DNA of 29,488 nucleotides from a virus. Location of the stretch: IMG/VR virus record IMGVR_UViG_3300038716_000200, positions 1 to 29,488 of that record; one strand, 5' to 3'. Both the position numbers and the translations under genes were made by a program. The notes under the pieces were generated by a model. That model saw only the letters and a list, made by a program, of their open reading frames with translations, searched no databases and was not told the origin of the DNA. Position 1 is the stretch's first letter. Every line of letters begins with the position of its first letter. Below, piece after piece: positions 7,425 through 23,707 of the stretch.

Positions 7425-7814
7425 ATGATTTTCCTCGAACCTATTATTGCTGCTCTCTTAGGTGCTGGTGTGACTGCACTTGCTGTTTTCTTTAAGAAAA
7501 ATATAGCTGCACAAATGGTCTTAAAATATGGCTCGTTAGTGAAGAAGGCATATGACATTATTGACCCAATTTTAGATAAGAATTTAACGAATTGGAATGG
7601 TGGTCAAGTTGATCAAGCTTTTGAATTAGCAGTTAAGTCTGCAGCCGATGGCGAACTAACAGAAGATGAAATTAAAAAGATAGCTGTTTATATGGCTGAC
7701 GCTTGGTTACCTGCTGCAGCTGCAGATAAAGTACGCATTCTTGAAGCTAAGGGTACAACTGAAGATCAAGATATAGTTACTAAATCAATTACCAAAACCG
7801 TTAACGCTTCTTAA
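7425..7814 (+). CDS. One-helix membrane protein, 129 aa
   Basis: A hydrophobic segment at about 4-23 (LEPIIAALLGAGVTALAVFF) followed by KK is a clear N-terminal transmembrane helix or signal anchor. The remainder is a soluble alpha-helical domain with ELTEDEIKKIAVYMADAW near the end. The topology would suit a holin-like, tail-channel-associated or virion membrane protein; no family is recognised. It lies 40 bases after the 672-residue protein and 2 bases before the next gene, inside the putative virion-protein operon. No Shine-Dalgarno sequence precedes the ATG. Confidence 0.7.
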   Translation: MIFLEPIIAALLGAGVTALAVFFKKNIAAQMVLKYGSLVKKAYDIIDPILDKNLTNWNGGQVDQAFELAVKSAADGELTEDEIKKIAVYMADAWLPAAAADKVRILEAKGTTEDQDIVTKSITKTVNAS

Positions 7815-7816
7815 TT

Positions 7817-8353
7817 ATGGCCGCTGGAGTTCAATTAACAGATCTAAGACCTTTTGCTGATAAAGCATTAAAGAAGCAACAGAAGTTAAAGCAACAAGAT
7901 AAGAATCTTGCATTAAACCCTTTTGCTGATGCTGGAACTCTTAGTAGGGATAAATATACTTCTCGTGATCCAAAGTCTGGAAGTTACCAATGGGCTCAGA
8001 AATTAAAAGATGAGAACCCAGTAGATGATGATTTTCATCTTGCCGCAAGATCATTTATTAGACCAGATGAGAAAGGGTTTAGACAGGCGGATGATGCCTA
8101 TCAAAAGTGGGAAAATTTTGCTTTTGTTCCTTTCCAACCAGGTAACAAAGTAGGGGCTTTAGCTGACCGAGTTGATACTCCTGATGTACAGGCGTTTTAT
8201 GATACATATACGAGATCGCGTTTAATAGACGACGAAACTTACGTAGGTTCATCTAACCTTGCATATATGTTTGAAACACCTGCCACTGAAGGAAGTACTG
8301 AGAATAATCCTAATGAGGCGAACGTCTCACCAAGTAAGGGGGTAGCAGTGTAA
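7817..8353 (+). CDS. Hypothetical virion-module protein, 178 aa
   Basis: A soluble, charged protein. The N-terminal half is Lys/Gln-rich (KALKKQQKLKQQDKNLAL) and leads into NPFADAGTLSRDKYTSRDP; the middle is aromatic-rich (AYQKWENFAFVPFQPGNK); the C-terminus is polar and low complexity. I do not recognise a family. It starts two bases after the membrane protein, and its TAA stop overlaps the next ATG as TAATG, so it is co-translated with the 261-residue protein that follows. Role inferred only from location among probable internal virion genes. Confidence 0.7.
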   Translation: MAAGVQLTDLRPFADKALKKQQKLKQQDKNLALNPFADAGTLSRDKYTSRDPKSGSYQWAQKLKDENPVDDDFHLAARSFIRPDEKGFRQADDAYQKWENFAFVPFQPGNKVGALADRVDTPDVQAFYDTYTRSRLIDDETYVGSSNLAYMFETPATEGSTENNPNEANVSPSKGVAV

Positions 8354-9138
8354 TGGCACAAGAAAAAAGTTGGTTTGATGATCCTGTAGTAAAACGAGTG
8401 AAAAGTAAAGTTGCGGATAAGGTTGTCGATAAAGGAATGGAAATGCTTGAAAAAGGAACTGGGGTACCTGTTAGACAGGTAGCTGGTTTAATGTCTCCCG
8501 AATTGTGGGGTAAAGCTAAGGAAGCTGCACAAGGGTGGTGGAATACTATGGCTGCTCCAGCTAGAGAGGGGACTCAGAATCTTCTTACAACTACTGCTAT
8601 GGAAGCAGGTGGTTTTAAAGGTCCTGCTCCTACAGACGATGTCAGCAGAGTACCTAGATTTAGAAGTGAGCGAAGTGTAGGTGAGCCTTATCAAGAGGGT
8701 AAAGGTTGGGATCAACGTTGGCGAAAAGAAGAGGGAGAATATCCTAGATGGGCAAAAGCCGCATATGAAAATCCAGAAGTTGTAGCAAATATTGCAGGTA
8801 GCATTGTTCCAGCCGCTGCAGTTGTAGGTACCGGTACTGCTCTTAATTGGTGGGCTCAAGGAGATAAGCCTAGATCTGATTATGCCTACAATGTGAATCC
8901 TGCTCGTGGTAGTTATAACTCCAGTGTTGAATCTGCTGAAGCTTCCGCTTTTTATAAGCATCAATTAGAAGAACAGAAATTTGCACATAAGATGGAATTG
9001 ATGAATGCAAGAGAACAATCTCGTACTCCAGGTGTTCAAAATACGTCTATGGGTTCTTATGGAGGAGGTCCAATGGATAACAGTGCCATTATTGGATTAC
9101 TTCAAAATCAATTTGGGAATACTAGAACTTACTTCTAA
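8353..9138 (+). CDS. Ala/Trp-rich virion-module protein, 261 aa
   Basis: Begins with an amphipathic helix (MAQEKSWFDDPVVKRVKSK), then helical Ala/Trp-rich segments (KEAAQGWWNTMAAPAREG), a basic/aromatic patch, and an Ala/Val-rich hydrophobic segment (IAGSIVPAAAVVGTGTALNW, about 153-172) that could insert in a membrane. The C-terminal half contains a helical stretch (QLEEQKFAHKMELMNAREQ) and ends FGNTRTYF. A very similar C-terminal signature (R-x-Y-F) appears in two other proteins of this block. No enzymatic motif was found. A candidate internal/ejection protein; family unknown. TAATG overlap with the upstream gene. Confidence 0.7.
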   Translation: MAQEKSWFDDPVVKRVKSKVADKVVDKGMEMLEKGTGVPVRQVAGLMSPELWGKAKEAAQGWWNTMAAPAREGTQNLLTTTAMEAGGFKGPAPTDDVSRVPRFRSERSVGEPYQEGKGWDQRWRKEEGEYPRWAKAAYENPEVVANIAGSIVPAAAVVGTGTALNWWAQGDKPRSDYAYNVNPARGSYNSSVESAEASAFYKHQLEEQKFAHKMELMNAREQSRTPGVQNTSMGSYGGGPMDNSAIIGLLQNQFGNTRTYF

Positions 9139-11577: not shown

Positions 11578-12849
11578 ATGGCTGATGATGTATTAAAAAA
11601 ACAACAAGCTGAAAATATAAAGGCAAAGACAGAGATAGATACTGGTGCAACGGGTTCAGATCGTGAGGGGAAGACGTATACAATTGCCGGTAATAAATAT
11701 ACGGTTGACCAGGAGACGACTAATCAATTAGTACTAGATGAGGCTGCAGCAGCACAAACTCGTCTCAATATGATGACGGCTGCAGATGAAGATAAATATC
11801 TGAAGACTCATTTCACAACTGAGGAGATGAGAGCCGCTGATCAGGCTTCATTGTTGAAACAGAATGAATATGCGACGATGGGTGAGCAGGATCGAGCAAC
11901 GGAAGCAGTTAAAGGAGTTGAGAGAAGAGCACAGCTAGAAACTGAAGGAGCTGAACAACGAGAAACTGCTGAAACTGTTGGCGCACAGACTCGTTTAACA
12001 GAAGCTGAAAAAGGAGCACAGGAACGACTTACTCAGCAAGAAGGATTACAAGAGAGTGGACGTCAAGCACGAGAAACACAAGCAGAAAGATATGTAGGAG
12101 AAAGAGGTTTAGAAGAGACTAGAGGAGCAGAGGCTCGTGCATTAGCTGGTAAGACAGCAGCTGAAGCTAGAGAAACTCAAGCTGAGCGTTTTGCTGGTGA
12201 AAGAAGTTTAGTTGAAACAGGAGGAGCTCAACAAAGGGAAACTCAAGCTGAGAAGTATGCAGGAGAAAGAGGTTTAGAAGAAACTAGAGGAGCACAGACA
12301 CGAGAGACTCAGGCAGAAAGATATGCAGGGGAAAGAGGACTAGTTGAGACAGGTGGCGAACAGCAAAGACAAACACAGGCTGAGAAATATATGGGAGAAA
12401 GAGGATTAGTTGAGGCTGGTGGTCAACAAGCACGAGAAACGCAAGCTGAACGTTATGCAGGAGAAAGGGGATTAGCAAGTACTGTTGCTCAAGAGGGCAG
12501 ACAAACTCAGGCAGAGAAGTATGCAGGGGAAAGAGGACTAGTTAGTTCTAAGGGTGCAGAAGAACGTCAGACTCAAGCAGAGAGATATGCGGGTGAAAGG
12601 GGATTATTAGGGGAAGGAGGGTCTCAAGCTAGACAGACACAAGCCGAGAGATATACAGGTGAGAGATCCTTATTAAGAGAGGGTGGTTCTGAAACCAGAA
12701 AAACTAGAGAGACTGAAGGAGAACAGGCCAGAGCATTAGAGAGAACTCGTGGATCTGAAACACGTCGTACAGATCTTCAAAGAGAATCTTTCCGTCGCTA
12801 TAAGGAAGATAGGGACTATAGTCAAGCTCGCACAGCAGCTAGAGCATGA
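11578..12849 (+). CDS. Hendecad-repeat coiled-coil protein, 423 aa
   Basis: Residues 1-115 are non-repetitive and acidic. From about 118 an 11-residue periodicity appears (for example AQLETEGAEQR, ETAETVGAQTR), and residues 165-373 hold nine 22-residue units with the half-consensus RETQAERYAGE and RGLVETGGxQQ, plus one 11-residue half unit after the first. The end (about 374-423) continues as Arg-rich degenerate repeats. Eleven residues correspond to three turns of helix, so the array should form a long, straight, nearly untwisted coiled coil or fibre, probably oligomeric. Candidate roles are an internal or tail fibre shaft or a scaffold. It lies directly before the terminase genes, with an ATGA overlap into the next gene. 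Confidence 0.8.
   Translation: MADDVLKKQQAENIKAKTEIDTGATGSDREGKTYTIAGNKYTVDQETTNQLVLDEAAAAQTRLNMMTAADEDKYLKTHFTTEEMRAADQASLLKQNEYATMGEQDRATEAVKGVERRAQLETEGAEQRETAETVGAQTRLTEAEKGAQERLTQQEGLQESGRQARETQAERYVGERGLEETRGAEARALAGKTAAEARETQAERFAGERSLVETGGAQQRETQAEKYAGERGLEETRGAQTRETQAERYAGERGLVETGGEQQRQTQAEKYMGERGLVEAGGQQARETQAERYAGERGLASTVAQEGRQTQAEKYAGERGLVSSKGAEERQTQAERYAGERGLLGEGGSQARQTQAERYTGERSLLREGGSETRKTRETEGEQARALERTRGSETRRTDLQRESFRRYKEDRDYSQARTAARA
12070..12696 (+). repeat. In-frame 66-bp repeat array (nine units plus one half unit)
   Basis: Unit 1 is 12070-12135, the half unit 12136-12168 and units 2-9 12169-12696. All have the same length at the protein level (22 aa) with variable codons, so the array is old and maintained by selection or gene conversion rather than newly expanded. 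The coding strand is purine-rich. Confidence 0.85.
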
Positions 12850-13355: not shown

Positions 13356-14879
13356 ATGGCAGGTACAAGTATTTATAGCGTCTACAGACGCACTGCAAGA
13401 GCAGCCGCTAAACAGCAGGTAGTCAGAAAGACTTCCAATATCGACGTCGAACGTGCAAGAACAGATTTTGCATATTTTTGTGATGTTGTAGGTGATAAAC
13501 CTCCTGCGAGACATCATAGACAATGGCATAAATATTTATGTACGGGAGATAGTAGTGAATGTTTAGCTGGAATAGCTGGTCCGAATATTGATATTCTTGC
13601 TCCACGAGGTTCAGCTAAGTCAACGGTTCTCGGTTTATTTACAGCTTGGTCAATTGGTGTACATGCTTTAAAGCGTATGCCTTTGAAAATTCTGTATATT
13701 TCTTACACGGTAGATGTAGCAAGACCTAAGAGCGCAGCCATTAAAAGAATTATCGAAGAAAGTAAGACTTATAAAGAAGTTTTTCCAACAGTAAAAATTG
13801 CTAAAGGAATAAACTCAAACGAGTATTGGAGTATTGATTGGAAATTTGCAGGTATTAAGTCTACTGGTGAAGAAGAATTTACTGTTTGTTGTGCAGGTCT
13901 AAAGGGTGCTGTGACATCTAAACGTTCTCATCTTTGTATTATTGATGACGCAATTAAGAGTGCGGATGATATCAAGAATAGGGATATCCGCCAAGCTATG
14001 GAGGACAACTGGAATGCTGTTATTGTTCCAACTATGTTTGAGGGTGGAAGAGCAGTTTGTCTAGGTACTCGCTTTCGTCATGATGATATTCATAACACTA
14101 CTTTTACTCCAGCAAATGACTGGGTTCAGATTATTCAATCTGCAATAACGGTAGATAAGAACGGAGATGAAATATCTTATTGGCCTGAGATGTGGTCCTT
14201 AGATTATCTTCGTGATCGTCGAAGACAAGCTCCAATTGCTTATAGTTTTCAGTATCAAAATCAAATTGTACAAACAAGTGAATTATCTCTTTCACCAGAT
14301 TTAATTGTTAAGGGAACTATTGCTACTCAATTTGATGCAATGGGTGTGGGTGTTGATTTATCAGCGGGTGTAAGAGAACAAAATGACTATACAGTTTTTG
14401 TAATGGGGGGTCGTGTTGGCGACAAAATTCATATTATTGATTGCAAGAGGATACGTCTTATGGGTAATTTAGAAAAATTAGATAGTTTAATGGAAATGAT
14501 GGAAGAATGGGGTGTAATTCATAAAGATAATAAAAATTATTTTCCTACTGGGAGTGCTGTCCACATTTGGTCAGAAGCCGTTGCATATCAAGCATCGTTA
14601 GAAGCTGATTTTAAACGAATCTGTTTGGGAGAACAAGGTTTATATAACATGATATGGCATGCAGTCAAAGGATTTCGCGGGGATAAAGTTGCACGTTTCA
14701 GGGGAATTATGGGTCTATTTGAGCAGAGGAAAATTATATTTAATAAGTACAGAAGATTTACTAATCTAACTGATGAGATAGTTAATTTTGGAGTTAGTTC
14801 TCACGATGATTGTGTCGATGCATTGGTATGGCTGTGTAATGGATTAATGACCAAAGGAAAACTAGAGTTAGAGTATTGA
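13356..14879 (+). CDS. terL: Terminase large subunit, 507 aa
   Basis: Packaging motor ATPase and nuclease. Walker A is APRGSAKST at 82-90, Walker B is LCIIDD at 193-198, with GTRF at 237-240 as the likely coupling motif. The C-terminal RNase H-like nuclease domain has the acidic residues GVDLSAG (Asp334), an intermediate acidic residue around Glu407 (WSEAVAYQ) and DDCVDAL (Asp484/Asp488). Length is normal for the family. It would cut and pump DNA through the portal encoded just downstream. ATG start at 13356 lacks a Shine-Dalgarno sequence and follows the small subunit by 24 bases. The presence of all motifs suggests an active enzyme. Confidence 0.95.
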   Translation: MAGTSIYSVYRRTARAAAKQQVVRKTSNIDVERARTDFAYFCDVVGDKPPARHHRQWHKYLCTGDSSECLAGIAGPNIDILAPRGSAKSTVLGLFTAWSIGVHALKRMPLKILYISYTVDVARPKSAAIKRIIEESKTYKEVFPTVKIAKGINSNEYWSIDWKFAGIKSTGEEEFTVCCAGLKGAVTSKRSHLCIIDDAIKSADDIKNRDIRQAMEDNWNAVIVPTMFEGGRAVCLGTRFRHDDIHNTTFTPANDWVQIIQSAITVDKNGDEISYWPEMWSLDYLRDRRRQAPIAYSFQYQNQIVQTSELSLSPDLIVKGTIATQFDAMGVGVDLSAGVREQNDYTVFVMGGRVGDKIHIIDCKRIRLMGNLEKLDSLMEMMEEWGVIHKDNKNYFPTGSAVHIWSEAVAYQASLEADFKRICLGEQGLYNMIWHAVKGFRGDKVARFRGIMGLFEQRKIIFNKYRRFTNLTDEIVNFGVSSHDDCVDALVWLCNGLMTKGKLELEY

Positions 14880-15107: not shown

Positions 15108-17360
15108 ATGAGTAGTACTGCTATTAAATCCGAGCTCGATCCTATTATTAAGGCAGTAGTGAATCGAGACGGTAGCGGATCAGCTGACACGATGCTGGTT
15201 AATGCTCATTTATCCCAGATGAAAATGTTTGGGATACGCCAAGGAGTTGAGTTTTATCCTGATCAAGATAACTTTGGAACACAAAGATTTGATTTTATTC
15301 AACAGGTTATAAAGTTCAATAAGTTAGATGCAAGACTTGATTCAATATGGGACAGGTTTTTAGCATATGGAAAAGGTCTTTTTTATATTCGACCAACACA
15401 AAAAACTTATCGTCTCTATTGGTTTGATAAAGATTCTTATCGTACATATTATTCACCAGAAGGTGATTTAGAAGAAGTAATCATCATCTATCCTTATAAA
15501 GTTAAAGCTTCTAAAGGATTTAAAGGTGCAGGATTAAATACAGACAAACGTTATATGCGTTTACGTATTACTCCTGAAGAAATAGAAGAGTTTCATAGTG
15601 AACAAGAGATAACTTTTGAAAATGAAAATATGGATTATGCCGCCTTTGATAAAAAGGTACATGACAACAGTATGGAGTTTATTCCATGTGTTGAGGTATT
15701 TAATAATCCTGATGCTTTTGGTACTGACGGAGCTGGCGAATTTGAGTGGTTATCTAGTCAGATAGTAGCTCATGACGAGATGGTAAAGAATATTCGTGCA
15801 AATTTATCATTCTTTGGTAATCCAACTTTACTTTCTTCCCGTCCGAAGCAGGATATTATTGAGCAGAATTCAGATGATACAGCTCAAAGACCTAGTATTT
15901 CGAGTCAATCAGGTTTTAATTCTGACTTCAGCTTATCTAGTTCTACCTTTAAACAAGATCCATCCAGTAGGCAACAGCCTGGTTATATAGGTAAACCAGG
16001 AAGTGGATATCGCGTACCAAGAGTTATCGCTAATTTGGAGCCAACTGATCGTGTTGGTTTTATTACTCCTAATGCTGTAGGTACCGATCAAGCTCGCTAT
16101 GCAGAACAGCTAAGAAGTGAAATAAGATTAGCTTTAGGTGGTATTGATGATCTAAGCATCACAAACGTGACTGCAACGGAGATTAAATCAGCCTATGGAC
16201 GTGTTAGTGCCACAGCTAAGAAGAAATGCTTACAACTCTATACATATGGCGTTTGTAAGTGTTTTGAGTTAATGATCTTCCAAGAAGAGCAGATCTTCCG
16301 TAAGTCTCTTGCTTATAACTCAGGTATTAAATATCCTATTCCTCCAGAAGATCCTGATGATGAAGTCTTATTTGAAAAATATGTTAAACAAAAAGATAGA
16401 TATGAGAAGAAGTTACAGCAAGCTATTGATATGGCTGTTGAGACTAAAGAGATCCCCGATGGTGTTGTAGGTTTAGCTCCTGATGGAGATCGAACAGTTA
16501 GTTGGCGTTGGATGGGTCCAGTATATGAAGATACTGCACAGGATAAATTAAACCAATCTATCTTCACTCGTAACCTTCAAGAATTGGGTGTTGATAGTAT
16601 AGAAGCACTGAAGTATTTATTTCCTTCCAAAACTGACGACGAGATTGCAGGAATGCTATCTGGTTATCCGTTTAGAATGGTAGGAGAAGTACAAAGGGCA
16701 TATTCTCAACTCATTGACTTAGTCAATCAAGAGATGAGAACACCACATCCGCAGCAACCGAATTTACCGATGGCTGCAGATCCGAGGCTTGACCTCACCC
16801 CGTTTTTATACCGAACACTCGAATCATTACAGAAGGAAGTAACTTATGCAGGACGCTACCGTAGCGCCGACCCAATCGGCACCCCAAGTATCCCAGACCC
16901 AGCCGACCAGCTACGTGGCTCCAGCGGCTCAGTCAGCAGCCCAGGCACCGGTCGTGGGAACGTCTCCCCAATGGGTGGCGACCTCCCAGCCGATGGCGGC
17001 ACCAATGTCACAAGCGCCAGCGCAGACGGCGGTACCTTACCAGAATTCAGCCCCTACAGCGTACAGCCCCCAGGTATCCCAGGCGCCCCAACAGCAGGAG
17101 AGCCCCTACAAGGAGGCGTTCAACAAGGTGGTGGGTCTCCTGAGTTCACCAGTCCAATTCCCGTTCCAGGGTCAACAGTCGCCTCAGACTCAAGCAATAG
17201 ACCCGGCCAGCTACGCTTCCCAACAAACAACCCAGTTCGCCAATCAGGGTCTTCAGACCTCTATGCCTGGGATCAACAGCAACCAGGAATACTTGGACAA
17301 TTATTCCCAAACCTCGTTGCCGGAGATAACAGAGGACCAGCTCCTCGCAAACGGAGTTAG
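15108..17360 (+). CDS. Portal protein, 750 aa
   Basis: The dodecameric portal forms the DNA channel at one vertex. Evidence is position after TerL, length, and a portal-like build: helical N-terminal wing (AVVNRDGSGSADTMLVNAH), a beta-rich region with RLYWFDKDSYRTYYSPEGDL, a long helical stem region containing KCFELMIFQEEQIF, and a helical C-terminal part up to about residue 580. From residue 580 to 750 (16846-17360) it is Gly/Pro/Ser-rich and low complexity, and the same bases encode the N-terminus of the next gene in another frame. A natural portal crown would end near residue 580, so this tail is an overprinted extension. The predicted start has no Shine-Dalgarno sequence. Confidence 0.85.
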   Translation: MSSTAIKSELDPIIKAVVNRDGSGSADTMLVNAHLSQMKMFGIRQGVEFYPDQDNFGTQRFDFIQQVIKFNKLDARLDSIWDRFLAYGKGLFYIRPTQKTYRLYWFDKDSYRTYYSPEGDLEEVIIIYPYKVKASKGFKGAGLNTDKRYMRLRITPEEIEEFHSEQEITFENENMDYAAFDKKVHDNSMEFIPCVEVFNNPDAFGTDGAGEFEWLSSQIVAHDEMVKNIRANLSFFGNPTLLSSRPKQDIIEQNSDDTAQRPSISSQSGFNSDFSLSSSTFKQDPSSRQQPGYIGKPGSGYRVPRVIANLEPTDRVGFITPNAVGTDQARYAEQLRSEIRLALGGIDDLSITNVTATEIKSAYGRVSATAKKKCLQLYTYGVCKCFELMIFQEEQIFRKSLAYNSGIKYPIPPEDPDDEVLFEKYVKQKDRYEKKLQQAIDMAVETKEIPDGVVGLAPDGDRTVSWRWMGPVYEDTAQDKLNQSIFTRNLQELGVDSIEALKYLFPSKTDDEIAGMLSGYPFRMVGEVQRAYSQLIDLVNQEMRTPHPQQPNLPMAADPRLDLTPFLYRTLESLQKEVTYAGRYRSADPIGTPSIPDPADQLRGSSGSVSSPGTGRGNVSPMGGDLPADGGTNVTSASADGGTLPEFSPYSVQPPGIPGAPTAGEPLQGGVQQGGGSPEFTSPIPVPGSTVASDSSNRPGQLRFPTNNPVRQSGSSDLYAWDQQQPGILGQLFPNLVAGDNRGPAPRKRS

Positions 17361-17874
17361 CCCTAAGAGTATTGAGGTAATTGATCATTTTGGTCCTGAC
17401 ACTGCAGGAATCTTAAATGACTACTCTTGTGAGCTAGAAGATGCTGTAGTAGCTACTAATGGTCAGTTACAAGAAGCAGCTGGATTACTTAAGGAATTAT
17501 CTGACGAGCATAAAGTTTACGAAAGAATTCTTACTGATCCAGATATTCTTGCTGATTATACATGTGAGTTCTTTGGTAAGAATGGTCCTTATCCTGTACC
17601 TGATCCTCGTGTTGCTGCACCTCAGGGACAATCTGTTGGACAACAGTTTGCAAATGCTCCTCAAGTAACTGGTCAACCTAACGTTACTGGACAGGCTCCA
17701 GGACGCCCTGAAATGCCAGTTCCTCCACAGCCTCAGAGACCTGCAGATCCAAATGCTTTCTGGAATAGTTTCGGACAAGCTGCTGATCGCAATCCTCAGG
17801 AAGCTTGGAAGTACTTAAATGCAGCTCAGCAGAGTCCTGAGATCTTCCGCCAAAAGCTCCTTGTAATGGAGTAA
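16846..17874 (+). CDS. Pro/Gln/Ala-rich protein overlapping the portal gene, 342 aa
   Basis: Begins inside the portal gene in the +1 frame with a clear AAGGA ribosome binding site (16833-16837), 8 bases before the ATG, so translation from here is plausible. The first 172 residues are Pro/Gln/Ala/Ser-rich and disordered (SAPQVSQTQPTSYVAPAAQS); from about 173 on it is a folded-looking acidic region (IEVIDHFGPDTAGIL, ELEDAVVATNGQLQEAAG, VYERILTDPDILADYTCEF), then another Pro/Gln-rich linker and a C-terminal helix (AWKYLNAAQQSPEIFRQ). Position between portal and capsid, plus disorder and helices, suggest a scaffolding or head-associated protein; no family is recognised. It continues 514 bases past the portal stop and ends before a terminator. 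Confidence 0.75.
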   Translation: MQDATVAPTQSAPQVSQTQPTSYVAPAAQSAAQAPVVGTSPQWVATSQPMAAPMSQAPAQTAVPYQNSAPTAYSPQVSQAPQQQESPYKEAFNKVVGLLSSPVQFPFQGQQSPQTQAIDPASYASQQTTQFANQGLQTSMPGINSNQEYLDNYSQTSLPEITEDQLLANGVSPKSIEVIDHFGPDTAGILNDYSCELEDAVVATNGQLQEAAGLLKELSDEHKVYERILTDPDILADYTCEFFGKNGPYPVPDPRVAAPQGQSVGQQFANAPQVTGQPNVTGQAPGRPEMPVPPQPQRPADPNAFWNSFGQAADRNPQEAWKYLNAAQQSPEIFRQKLLVME

Positions 17875-17883
17875 TAAAAAAAA

Positions 17884-17926
17884 GGGGTGAGTGGAATAAA
17901 AACCTCCACCCCATTTTATTTTTTTT
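17884..17926 (+). terminator. Intrinsic terminator after the packaging module
   Basis: GGGGTG (17884-17889) pairs with CACCCC (17907-17912), followed by an interrupted T-tract up to 17926. An A-run before the stem partly complements the T-run, so it could work in both directions. The next gene starts only a few bases later at 17930, with no ribosome binding site, so read-through or a re-start must supply its mRNA. Confidence 0.75.
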
Positions 17927-17929
17927 CTA

Positions 17930-18334
17930 ATGGCAAAAAAGAAACCTAGCGCACAAGATAAAACAGCATCCTTTCTTTCAGGCTTTGGTACGGCTGGAGG
18001 AGGAATAGGTGCTCCTGGTTTAACTATGTTTGGTGCAGGAGATTCTCAAAGACAAGTTGTCTATGGGATGACAGATAATAATGCAGCTTTAAGAGGATCT
18101 GGTGTTGTAGATGGTGCTCCTATGCCTCCAGATTTAGATGCGAGTTACTTGAAATTAAATCTTCCAGGTTCTCCATTACCTATGAATGCTATGTCTTCTG
18201 TTCAGAATCTAAGGGCAAGTATTAATAATCAAAAAATGTTCATTGCACAGTACCAAATGACTTTGGCACAGATGATGCCACCTGCTGCTAACCAACAACT
18301 TCCTGTTGGATATCCACCTCCTAAGAAAAAATGA
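17930..18334 (+). CDS. Small hypothetical capsid-module protein, 134 aa
   Basis: Lys-rich start (MAKKKPSAQDK), then Gly-rich stretches (GFGTAGGGIGAPGLTMFGAG), a middle section with PMPPDLDASYLKLNLPGS, a short helix (SVQNLRASINNQKMFIAQYQ), and a Pro/Lys C-terminus (GYPPPKKK). The Gly/Pro-rich and helical pattern would suit a small head or scaffolding-associated protein; I do not recognise it. It follows the terminator by 4 bases, which is odd for a gene needing expression, and overlaps the next gene by ATGA. Confidence 0.65.
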   Translation: MAKKKPSAQDKTASFLSGFGTAGGGIGAPGLTMFGAGDSQRQVVYGMTDNNAALRGSGVVDGAPMPPDLDASYLKLNLPGSPLPMNAMSSVQNLRASINNQKMFIAQYQMTLAQMMPPAANQQLPVGYPPPKKK

Positions 18335-18559: not shown

Positions 18560-18659
18560 TATAATTATTTCAATGGATTTTTTCCAGATATAGAGACTTC
18601 ATCCTCGTAAGAGGATTTTGTTCTCAGATATCAGCAAACTAAACGCTGAGAAAACAAAA
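18560..18659 (+). promoter_or_regulatory. Capsid-gene leader with TATAAT and two hairpins
   Basis: A TATAAT box is at 18560-18565; no matching -35 at the right spacing was found. ATCCTC (18601-18606) pairs with GAGGAT (18611-18616) around a GTAA tetraloop. A second stem, TTTTGTTCTCAG (18616-18627) with CTGAG (18646-18650) and AACAAAA (18653-18659), has a two-base bulge and ends at the capsid ATG. Stem-loops placed at the 5' end can stabilise capsid mRNAs, or control the start. Confidence 0.5.
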
Positions 18660-19804
18660 TGTTTATAGACAACGATTTCCCCAAACTGCTTGGTGCGGAG
18701 CTTTATAGGCCCCATCCAGCGTATATTGTGGAGATGGCTGCCGAACCAGTAGTCGTACATGACTTTACTAAACAACCTGGTCAAACTGTTCAGTTAGACC
18801 GCTACAGGTTCTTTGGTAACCCTGGCACTAAGACAAGCCGCGAGCGTACTCAGGATCAAACCATAGGTACAGCAAACAGCAGATCTATTGTCAAGGACAA
18901 GGTTCTAGTATCTCTTCGTGAATATACTGGCCCAGCAGATCCAAATAATACAAATCTCCCTAGCACATTCAAGATTGCTCGTGAGACATTGATGACCGCT
19001 CAGCGTCTACTGCTCGATACTGGGAACCTTAACATGTTCCATCAGTCGATTGGTTCGCTTACCCTTCTTGATGATTATCGCCGTTGGCGCGATAGAGTCT
19101 TCTTAGACGAGCTATTCAAGACTGAATCACGCGGTCAAAGTAGTGATTCACAAGGTGGTTACTACTATCCTAACGGAAAAGCTAAGAGTAATTCCACTAC
19201 TCTTACTGCTTACACAGCTACAGAGTATGCTTCTGAGCGCTTCAAGTTCAATGTAAAAACTGACCTTTTAGAAGTTGTAAAGAGCTTACGTAAGCGTCAC
19301 GTTCCAGTCTTCGCAGACGGCTACTATCGTTGCATAGCAGATCCTTCTCTAATGAAAGATCTACGTGCTGATCAAGGCTTCCGTGAAGTTGCACGTTACC
19401 CTGGCATGGGACAACCTAACCCTCTTATGGGTGCAATGGGTCCTAACCAAGCTATCTACGGTGGTGGTCAGTACGGCCAAGCACAATTCGTAGGTGGTGA
19501 GCCAGTAATGCCATCCGGCTTCGTATTTGAAGGTGTGAGATTCTTCGAATCCACAAACTTCCCTGCCAAAACTATCTCGGTCGATATCGGTGATGGAAAC
19601 GGAGCTTCCTCAAGAACTACTCCTGCTGGACTATTTTTCGGTCCTCAGGCGATAGGTGTAGGTATTGGTGGTCCAAATGCTCAAGTTCTAATTAATAACA
19701 ACGACGACTTTAGTCGCTTTATCATCTTGATATGGCAACTTTATGCTGGCTTTGCGAACTTGAATAAGGACTTCATTACAACAGCCTTCACTATCACTGA
19801 ATAA
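18659..19804 (+). CDS. Major capsid protein candidate (N4-gp56-like), 381 aa
   Basis: Residues 221-247 (GYYRCIADPSLMKDLRADQG and FREVARY) closely resemble the 'GYY...hPd...DLR.D..f.e...Y' block of N4 gp56-type capsid proteins with the HK97 fold. Further support: length, an N-terminal arm, an Asp/Arg-rich helix (LLDDYRRWRDRVFLDELFK) like the spine helix, and a C-terminal beta/hydrophobic end. C-ending codons such as TTC, ATC and CGC appear more often here than in its neighbours, as expected for the most abundant virion protein, though I judged this by eye. It would assemble into the shell around the portal; no protease is seen nearby and no obvious cleavage site is evident. Confidence 0.75.
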   Translation: MFIDNDFPKLLGAELYRPHPAYIVEMAAEPVVVHDFTKQPGQTVQLDRYRFFGNPGTKTSRERTQDQTIGTANSRSIVKDKVLVSLREYTGPADPNNTNLPSTFKIARETLMTAQRLLLDTGNLNMFHQSIGSLTLLDDYRRWRDRVFLDELFKTESRGQSSDSQGGYYYPNGKAKSNSTTLTAYTATEYASERFKFNVKTDLLEVVKSLRKRHVPVFADGYYRCIADPSLMKDLRADQGFREVARYPGMGQPNPLMGAMGPNQAIYGGGQYGQAQFVGGEPVMPSGFVFEGVRFFESTNFPAKTISVDIGDGNGASSRTTPAGLFFGPQAIGVGIGGPNAQVLINNNDDFSRFIILIWQLYAGFANLNKDFITTAFTITE

Positions 19805-21832: not shown

Positions 21833-23332
21833 ATGGCACTCGATACAAAAAGTACTGGAAGAGTATTTGCTTCAGATTTTGCAAAAGATGATCCTAGAAG
21901 GAAAAAGTTTCAGGATTCAGCTGATAAAGCACATGCTCAAGATATGCATGAACATCAAAAAAGTAAGTATTCGTCTGCGAGTCGTCATCAAGAAAAGAAA
22001 GGATCTACAGCACTTGGCAACGTTGTGAAGGCAGCTTCAAAATTTCCTGCAAGAGAAATATTTTCAACAGTTGGAAAGATAGCAAAGGATAGAGCAAAAG
22101 GTGGTTCTGACAACCGTTCAGCGGCGGTAGATGCAGCTAGTAGATATCAAAATACTGGTCTTAGATTCAATGAAGAAGCTAAAGAATGGCAACATCGTGA
22201 TACGGGTAAAGCAGCCACTGGAGAAGAAAGAGCTGCACAAGTAAGACACTATGGTGCATATACAGAAAAAGGAAGAGCAGGAATAGGTTATAGCGGTAAG
22301 GCTCCTACTAAACATGAGAAAGGATCAGACGCTTACTATGGACAAGAATTTGGACAGTCCCACGCAAGAGGTAGTGCTTGGACAGAACATCAACAAAAGC
22401 TTGATCCAACCTTAGATACTAAGGGATTACGGAGTAAATGGATTGAACAAAGAAGAGCTTTTGACACCGCTGGAGCTGGTGGTGGAGGTAAGCCAGTTAT
22501 AGGAATAAATCCACCTAAAAAAGGAAAAAAAATAAGAGAAGGGAAAAAAAATGGAAGACCAAGACCTGATATGCCAACTCCAAAACCTCCCGCATATATA
22601 CATCCGTGGGATAGAGACGATTGGGGAGCAGGAGATAGGGAGAAGATAGGTTTAGCACCACTTCCTAAACCACCTGTTGGAGCACCTGGGGGAACGCCTA
22701 AACCGCCTGTTGGAGGACCTGGAGATAGGATATATAAAACATTGCCTGTACCCATTAGAAGACCTCCTATTGGAGAAATTAAAAAACCAGGATTCCCTGG
22801 GGGCACTCCAAAGCCACCTCGTGAAGGAGGAGGAGGTATAAGGATAGGACTTCCAGGACCTCCAGGATTTTATGATAAAATGCCTGACGGTAGACAAAGA
22901 GGAGGAGGTAGAAGACCACCAATGTTCGGAGGAGGAAGAAGACCTCCTATGTATGGCGGTGGTAGAAGACCACCAATGTTTGGAGGCGGTAGAGGACCAA
23001 GACCTCCTATGTATGGCGGTGGAAGAGGTAGACCTCCAATGTTCGGAGGAGGTAGAGGACCAAGACCTCCTATGTTCGGAGGAGGCAGAGGTATACCTAA
23101 ATATGGAGGTTGGGGATCACCTGGTCACAACCTTCCACCAATGTTTGGAGGTGGAAGAGGTAGACCTACTCCTGGAAGAGGAGGAGGACTACACATACAG
23201 TGGGAGGCCCCTGGTAATCCATCTTGGGAAAGAAAGAATCCTAACTGGAGAGATAATCCAAGGTGGAAAGACCATGGATCTAAGTGGAGGAACTCTCTAC
23301 AAAACCGCTTTCCCCATTATAAGCACTTCTAG
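21833..23332 (+). CDS. Pro/Gly/Arg-rich protein with RPPMFGGG repeats, 499 aa
   Basis: N-terminal 200 residues are charged and helical (FQDSADKAHAQDMHEHQKS), with GRVFASDFAKDD at the start. From about 225 the protein is Pro/Gly/Lys-rich (PLPKPPVGAPGG, GDRIYKTLPVPIRRPP), then a repeat block at about 357-448 built on RPPMFGGG and RGPRPPMYGGG. The C-terminal 50 residues are Trp/Lys/Arg-rich (WERKNPNWRDNPRWKD). It looks disordered and very basic, as in DNA- or RNA-binding RGG/GRP proteins. A structural or DNA-condensing role inside the virion, or a fibre-like collagenous region, are both possible. No family is recognised. Confidence 0.7.
   Translation: MALDTKSTGRVFASDFAKDDPRRKKFQDSADKAHAQDMHEHQKSKYSSASRHQEKKGSTALGNVVKAASKFPAREIFSTVGKIAKDRAKGGSDNRSAAVDAASRYQNTGLRFNEEAKEWQHRDTGKAATGEERAAQVRHYGAYTEKGRAGIGYSGKAPTKHEKGSDAYYGQEFGQSHARGSAWTEHQQKLDPTLDTKGLRSKWIEQRRAFDTAGAGGGGKPVIGINPPKKGKKIREGKKNGRPRPDMPTPKPPAYIHPWDRDDWGAGDREKIGLAPLPKPPVGAPGGTPKPPVGGPGDRIYKTLPVPIRRPPIGEIKKPGFPGGTPKPPREGGGGIRIGLPGPPGFYDKMPDGRQRGGGRRPPMFGGGRRPPMYGGGRRPPMFGGGRGPRPPMYGGGRGRPPMFGGGRGPRPPMFGGGRGIPKYGGWGSPGHNLPPMFGGGRGRPTPGRGGGLHIQWEAPGNPSWERKNPNWRDNPRWKDHGSKWRNSLQNRFPHYKHF
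22901..23175 (+). repeat. In-frame RPPM(F/Y)GGG repeats
   Basis: About seven imperfect units of 27-33 bp encode RRPPMFGGG, RRPPMYGGG, RGPRPPMYGGG and variants. Codons vary (GGA, GGT and GGC), showing divergence since duplication. The out-of-frame stretch is also open over about 465 bases, an effect of the repeat composition. Confidence 0.8.
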
Positions 23333-23707
23333 ATGATGACAGATTCTGCTGCTAAAAGGGAACGAGCTAAGAGATTAGCAACCGATTATTCCGCCTCTCA
23401 AAGAGAACGGGATAATCAAGATAGGGCTAGAGGTGCTCAGAAGAGAGGAACTGTTACTGAAGGTGCTGAGAAGATGAGTATGGGAAGTATGGATAGACAG
23501 ACTAAAAGAGTAGATCGACCTCCTCTAAGTGAAACTACAGAAGTAGAAACTAAATTACACTCAGCTAATGAACGTGAAGGTCATCGACCTCAATCAAAAG
23601 TCAGTTCTGAAGCAGTGACTAATAGAAAAAATAGAGAGCAACCAGCTGAAGATACTAAAAAGTTTGCAAAAGATTATGCATCTAAACACAAAGAGAGGAG
23701 AAATTAA
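23333..23707 (+). CDS. Highly charged basic hypothetical protein, 124 aa
   Basis: Begins MMTDSAAKRERAKRLATDY right after the preceding TAG. Almost entirely polar: Arg/Lys/Glu/Gln with few hydrophobic residues (SQRERDNQDRARGAQKRGTV, NRKNREQPAEDTKK), ending FAKDYASKHKERRN. Both the start (AKRLATDYSASQRERD) and the end (AKDYASKHKERRN) hold a similar A-K-x-x-x-D-Y-(A/S)-S motif, and the same style occurs at the start of the 499-residue protein (FAKDDPRR). Probably disordered or helical, and likely nucleic-acid-binding or internal to the virion. No family. Confidence 0.62.
   Translation: MMTDSAAKRERAKRLATDYSASQRERDNQDRARGAQKRGTVTEGAEKMSMGSMDRQTKRVDRPPLSETTEVETKLHSANEREGHRPQSKVSSEAVTNRKNREQPAEDTKKFAKDYASKHKERRN

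Follow-up and report, generated by a model that had tools for sequence, protein, structure and literature searches.

A long out-of-frame overlap between the portal gene and a probable scaffold gene is conserved in the lineage of Synechococcus phage S-EIV1

In the 29,488-base virus contig analyzed here (the window), the last 515 bases of the portal protein gene (16846-17360) are also the first 515 bases of a second gene, ORF2, read in another frame, and comparison of relatives indicates that both frames are coding. It is very likely that the two genes form an ancient overlapping pair of structural genes of the lineage of Synechococcus phage S-EIV1 (KJ410740), with ORF2 started internally and encoding a probable scaffold. 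Sequence identities place the contig in this lineage, since its terminase, portal, and major capsid proteins are all related to those of S-EIV1 (65%, 53%, and 69% identical, respectively). S-EIV1 is the only isolate among its relatives, which are a widespread and abundant lineage of aquatic phages.

The terminase large subunit, portal, ORF2, and major capsid protein genes, with the features inside them, are on the plus strand. The terminase large subunit gene (13356-14879; phrog_38, E = 4.5e-78) is directly followed by the portal protein gene (15108-17360; 750 aa; phrog_20475, E = 7e-215; phrog_64 portal, E = 6e-6), then by ORF2 (16846-17874; 342 aa; +1 frame relative to the portal) and, after one small ORF (17930-18334), by the major capsid protein gene (18659-19804; phrog_1357, E = 6.5e-16). 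A stem-loop with A and T runs on its flanks (17889-17911) lies directly 3′ of the ORF2 stop and is possibly a terminator. Elsewhere in the window, a 423-aa ORF (11578-12849) contains many copies of a unit like TQAERYAGERGL and had no PHROG match; it probably encodes a long coiled fibre. A 499-aa Gly/Pro-rich repetitive ORF (21833-23336) is overlapped in the +1 frame by a 154-aa Glu-rich ORF (22872-23336), and this overlap may be a mere mechanical result of the repeat.

A sequence search of solved structures gave no match to the first protein of the pair. Its predicted model aligned with the portals of SaPI1, SPP1, T7, and P22 and with other portals (Z 10-14.5 over approximately residues 1-510), and Foldseek matched the model to solved phage portals (E = 2e-8). 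The modeled fold, together with the place of the gene after the terminase and before the major capsid protein, confirmed the protein as a phage portal. The core fold covers approximately residues 1-560 and the tail residues 581-750. From residue 581 onward, the pLDDT was near 30 except at a short helix in the model, formed by the motif QPGILGQLFPN (17280-17312).

The initial annotation, made from the window alone, had described a 515-base overlap in which the third base of each ORF2 codon is the first base of a portal codon, preceded by AAGGA eight bases before the ATG at 16846. Both ORFs, the length, the frame relation, and the AAGGA (16833-16837) were exactly as claimed, and an in-frame TAA is located two codons 5′ of the ATG. 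The GC counts, made by hand, were right to within a few bases: 0.675 at 16860-16979, 0.40 at 16620-16739, and 0.383 at 17400-17519. Third-position T was indeed scarce in the overlap, occupying 12% of ORF2 third positions compared with 48% in the rest of ORF2. When the portal codons were shuffled inside the tail, 2.0 stops were expected in the ORF2 frame (P for none = 0.05), and when codons were redrawn from portal-body usage, 4.0 were expected (P for none = 0.005). In the reverse test, 2.2 portal-frame stops were expected given ORF2 in the within-region shuffle (P for none = 0.08), while the other codon-usage redraw gave 13.8, with a stop-free frame in 0 of 20,000 draws. From one sequence alone, the case for dual coding is moderate, with both within-region shuffles being weak.

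The relatives carried the argument much further. Two scans of IMG/VR yielded sequences that formed two deep clades in a tree, containing the window and S-EIV1, respectively, and the overlap was present in 158 of 158 relatives with a readable junction, with a length of 512-641 bases and a start at the same site. At least 120 further contigs came from a pattern scan that required a TATG start and were therefore selected on that start; this sample (about 120 contigs listed) behaved like the first 158, except for a frameshift in L175, a deletion in L204, and a stop near the contig end in L250. In L175, where a single base is shifted, and in L204, both overlap frames are disturbed, as would result from sequencing error or in broken copies. 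A scan by the portal motif upstream of the overlap, in which the start was not required, yielded a third, more distant clade, which two further scans enlarged, and a three-clade tree was built. The portals of this clade are 42-50% identical and the overlap is still present, being kept in all 74 distinct members with a complete portal (443-524 bases). Across the three clades, the overlap ranged from 443 to 641 bases at the same junction. Two kinds of homologue named by the initial annotation as counter-evidence were looked for, namely those with a portal frame broken right after residue 580 and those with a second frame lacking its N-terminal half; none of either kind was found besides the three disturbed contigs. 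In the third clade, the GC content of the portal body was 0.40-0.66 and that of the overlap 0.57-0.72, above the body in every member, which suggests that the composition is a lasting consequence of double coding and not of recent import. The high GC content and the lack of third-position T would both follow from double coding.

We aligned homologous pairs and measured constraint in both frames, as the initial annotation had advised. Changes in the overlap of 47 pairs were sorted by their effect in both frames, and the weighted rates were 0.0886 for changes silent in both, 0.0312 for those silent only in ORF2, 0.0198 for those silent only in the portal, and 0.0109 for those changing both. Few changes (22-79) fell into the doubly silent class. 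The rate of portal-silent changes in the portal body was 0.086-0.089, and a dummy second frame had no effect there (0.92-0.96). Since the rate of doubly silent changes in the overlap is close to the silent rate of the body, the mutation rate in the overlap appears to be normal, with each frame adding its own constraint. Changes per codon position in the same 47 pairs were 0.057/0.022/0.300 in the portal body, 0.121/0.043/0.088 in the overlap, and 0.074/0.045/0.291 in the remainder of ORF2, counted by ORF2 codons. The omega values in the overlap were 0.35-0.55 for the portal and 0.22-0.35 for ORF2. For pairs matched by overlap distance, counting isolated changes with kappa at 1.5-6, they were 0.17-0.40 and 0.10-0.23, respectively, and the bootstrap limits were all below 1. 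In the third clade, omega was 0.21-0.41 for the portal and 0.14-0.28 for ORF2 within the overlap and 0.03-0.05 in the portal body; a dummy frame in the body gave 1.4-2.5 there, so the absolute scale of these values is rough. No isolated change in the overlap-matched pairs created a stop in either frame, an absence that is partly by construction, because the overlaps are delimited by their stops. With that proviso, the avoidance of portal stops proposed in the initial annotation fits both this absence and the deficit of third-position T. The substitution patterns indicate that both products are under purifying selection within the overlap in three deep clades, and the comparative case for dual coding, built on aligned sequences, is overwhelming and, in our view, decisive.

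These rates also bear on where ORF2 begins. The GenBank annotation of S-EIV1 agrees with a second gene that starts only after the portal stop, the upstream +1 frame then being a by-product of tail composition, and the within-tail codon shuffle does leave that frame open in 5% of draws. We find this barely conceivable, given that the rate of portal-silent changes that alter ORF2 was about 4-6 times below that of doubly silent changes, that the start codon and Shine-Dalgarno site of ORF2 are kept, and that the ORF2 motif NPYKEAFNKVV..LLS.PVQ.PFQGQ, located inside the overlap, is conserved between clades. A frame open by mere chance was ruled out by the substitution classes.

The portal tail could conversely be a neutral read-through, with selection on ORF2 only and a portal that could end near residue 580. 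The tail is predicted to be disordered and is much less constrained than the core (omega of about 0.2-0.55 versus about 0.03-0.10), as this explanation would have it. It is nevertheless very unlikely. Among C/T differences at portal base 1, all of which are silent in ORF2, 60 of 283 sites differed when the change was portal-silent but only 110 of 2558 when it altered the portal, a fivefold deficit. No early stop occurred in complete junctions outside the frameshifted or truncated contigs. The tail also ends in a motif, QPGxLxxLFPN, that is kept in two clades, where Q725, P726, G727, L732, F733, and P734 are invariant or nearly so.

Within clades, silent divergence falls sharply from 16578 (portal codon 491), 268 bases before the overlap, and is near zero at 16578-16607. 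This dip would suit a nucleic-acid signal (DNA or RNA) or some mutational quirk as the source of the high GC content and low silent divergence in place of a second protein. Between clades, however, silent sites at 16578-16845 are as saturated as the rest and the dip is gone. Moreover, sites silent in both frames vary at a normal rate in the overlap, constraint depends on the codon position in the second frame and on the effect on its amino acids, and no Rfam family matched the site. Taken together, we attach almost no probability to a signal or quirk of this kind. Another ORF was considered as the cause of the dip and rejected, since every sense frame of 16578-16845 is interrupted by several stops and the dip is absent from between-clade comparisons. 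Silent divergence in this segment varied from 0.02 to 0.44 among single pairs, which, together with the absence of the dip between clades, fits recombination within clades better than constraint; the dip probably reflects frequent within-clade recombination affecting the portal gene's 3′ end. Comparisons of body and overlap are partly confounded by the dip, whereas comparisons inside the overlap are unaffected.

ORF2 appears to have a translation start of its own, as judged from a Shine-Dalgarno site and start codon conserved beyond what portal codon usage would give and from the rescue of lost ATG codons by GTG. The AAGGA, a probable Shine-Dalgarno site, lies inside portal Lys-Glu codons. In 141 distinct relatives, this codon pair was AAG GAG in 71, AAA GAG in 41, and AAG GAA in 29; AAA GAA, expected at ~41% from body codon usage, was found in 0 of 141. 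The ATG (16846-16848) is set by a portal Tyr codon, TAT, followed by G. All 141 distinct relatives, from two clades, use TAT for this Tyr, although the split among Tyr codons is 57% TAT and 43% TAC. Though not independent, both sets of counts cover many lineages. In a scan of all IMG/VR contigs, the TAC form of the portal motif, with which the ATG would be lost, had a single, unrelated match, compared with at least 120 matches in IMG/VR for the TAT form. Where the portal does use TAC and the ATG is lost, as in three of the 74 third-clade junctions and in L294, a GTG is found one codon downstream and the overlap is kept. The contigs with a probable GTG start one codon on are L294, L377, L378, and L379.

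Alternatively, ORF2 might be made as a fusion to the portal by a stimulated, programmed +1 frameshift, with which the +1 relation and the nearby upstream Shine-Dalgarno-like site would be compatible. Most relatives have an in-frame stop two codons before the ORF2 ATG, however, and the Shine-Dalgarno site is correctly spaced for initiation. Moreover, TAT is kept so as to form the ATG, and GTG is used where the ATG has been lost. We regard frameshifting as highly improbable, and these features point to separate internal initiation at the ORF2 ATG.

The ORF2 protein was poorly modeled (mean pLDDT, 49.8). In the model, residues 1-85 are disordered and are followed by a short conserved helix (87-100) and a second disordered stretch that extends to about residue 160; further helices span 163-243 and, at the C terminus, 302-341. 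The helix at 87-100 (17104-17145; AFNKVVGLLSS region) lies within the overlap and contains invariant columns, with a pLDDT of about 50. The central helical part (17332-17574; pLDDT of about 65-86) includes a long helix at residues 186-230, and the C-terminal helices (17749-17868; pLDDT of about 50-64) are conserved in all three clades. The N-terminal half is rich in Pro, Gln, and Ala, and the overlap is predicted to be disordered in both proteins. ORF2 is acidic, with pI values of 4.1 and 4.5 for its two halves. Neither a sequence search of solved structures nor Foldseek, run with the ORF2 model, returned a match for ORF2, and no sequence or fold match to known scaffolds was detected with this poor model, scaffolds being proteins that diverge quickly.

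From its place between the portal and major capsid protein genes, its acidity, and its helical make-up, we consider ORF2 to be probably, though by no means surely, the capsid scaffold. The dual-coding pair might also be read with ORF2 as another head protein (internal, decoration, or portal-associated), for which the lack of homology to known scaffolds and a Pro/Gln-rich disorder unusual in scaffolds would speak. We take this to be a real but less probable alternative: the gene position, acidity, long helix, and C-terminal helices favor a scaffold, and in the window nothing else encoded from the portal gene to the major capsid protein gene fits the role better.

The initial annotation had suggested overprinting, with either the portal tail or the disordered N terminus of ORF2 being new. 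The dual coding that this implies was borne out, with both frames conserved and under selection in three clades, but the idea that one part is new did not gain such support. The overlap occurs in all three clades and so predates their divergence, and neither the IMG/VR scans nor one scan of genome contigs turned up a relative lacking it. Two relatives identified by TerL, MW202796 and HTVC023P, were tried as an outgroup; their portals are of a separate family (phrog_1216), showed no recognizable relation to those studied here, and were unusable for this purpose. Codon usage was atypical in both overlap frames, with scores of -0.27 for the portal tail, -0.47 for ORF2, and -0.51 for the unused frame, compared with about 0 to 0.35 for the genes of the window. 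Either frame could be the older one, or both tails could have arisen together.

We propose that some ribosomes would translate the whole portal gene, as far as the stop at 17360, so that the portal carries a disordered, approximately 170-residue Gly/Pro/Ser tail. Others would initiate at the internal ATG (16846), directed there by the AAGGA, and translate ORF2 in the +1 frame. In the product, a disordered Pro/Gln/Ala N-terminal half with one conserved short helix would lead into a long helix, which a linker would connect to the C-terminal helices. The disorder of both overlapping stretches may be what allows one stretch of DNA to serve two proteins. A more speculative extension, which we put forward only tentatively, is that the junction is obligatory throughout the lineage, the portal tail and the N-terminal half of the scaffold having co-evolved so that neither can change alone, and that the two tails possibly act together as head assembly starts at the portal vertex.

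In phage lambda, the scaffold Nu3 is made by internal initiation inside the upstream head gene C, in the same frame, and has its sequence in common with C. If ORF2 is a scaffold, it would likewise be internally initiated inside an upstream head gene; the differences are that Nu3 is in frame with C, whereas ORF2 is in another frame, and that the upstream gene here is the portal gene. The lambda genes Rz and Rz1 are a +1 overlap of two selected genes, as are portal and ORF2, also in a tailed phage. Rz1, however, is a short, embedded lysis gene, unlike the long terminal overlap of head genes described here. In viruses, +1 overlaps have a median length of 14 bases (interquartile range, 8-26; PMC8903798), compared with 443-641 bases in three deep clades of this lineage of tailed dsDNA phages. 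Overlapping genes are typically enriched in C, proline, serine, and disorder-promoting residues (PMC6195259), and portal and ORF2 share this bias and disorder as well as a terminal out-of-frame overlap. We found no description of the portal/ORF2 overlap in the open literature searched, which excluded the S-EIV1 genome paper. The overlap is a new, unusually long, and stable case among known overlapping genes.

The S-EIV1 junction has the same gene order, the start context AAAAGGAGATGAGTTATGCAGGACGCTACCGT, and an overlap of 554 bases, and its portal and ORF2 are 53% and 38% identical, respectively, to those of the window. In GenBank, by contrast, its second gene is annotated only after the portal stop (L001 8312-8713 rather than 7736-8713), and the overlap is absent from the record. 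The full ORF2 of S-EIV1 comprises 325 aa from L001 7736, of which the annotated CDS from 8312 covers the last 134 residues only. Two other genes of that record differ from expectation. The S-EIV1 terminase (L001 2529-5069) is annotated with 846 aa versus 507 aa in the window and matches in two pieces; it probably contains an insert, for example an intein. In place of the major capsid protein gene (L001 9233-10459; record 60859-61983, plus strand), GenBank lists a hypothetical gene on the antisense strand and a short ORF, which looks like a misannotation.

Annotated tailed-phage genomes seldom show a long out-of-frame overlap of two structural genes, in part because such overlaps are removed by gene callers, and in this lineage the record of the only isolate contains that error. 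A correct ORF2 start matters for structural or proteomic work on these phages. Hundreds of natural variants with GC contents of 38-66% make the junction a very good test bed for two disordered proteins encoded by one DNA sequence. If ORF2 is the scaffold, the portal and the scaffold, both nucleators of the head, would be tied together genetically.
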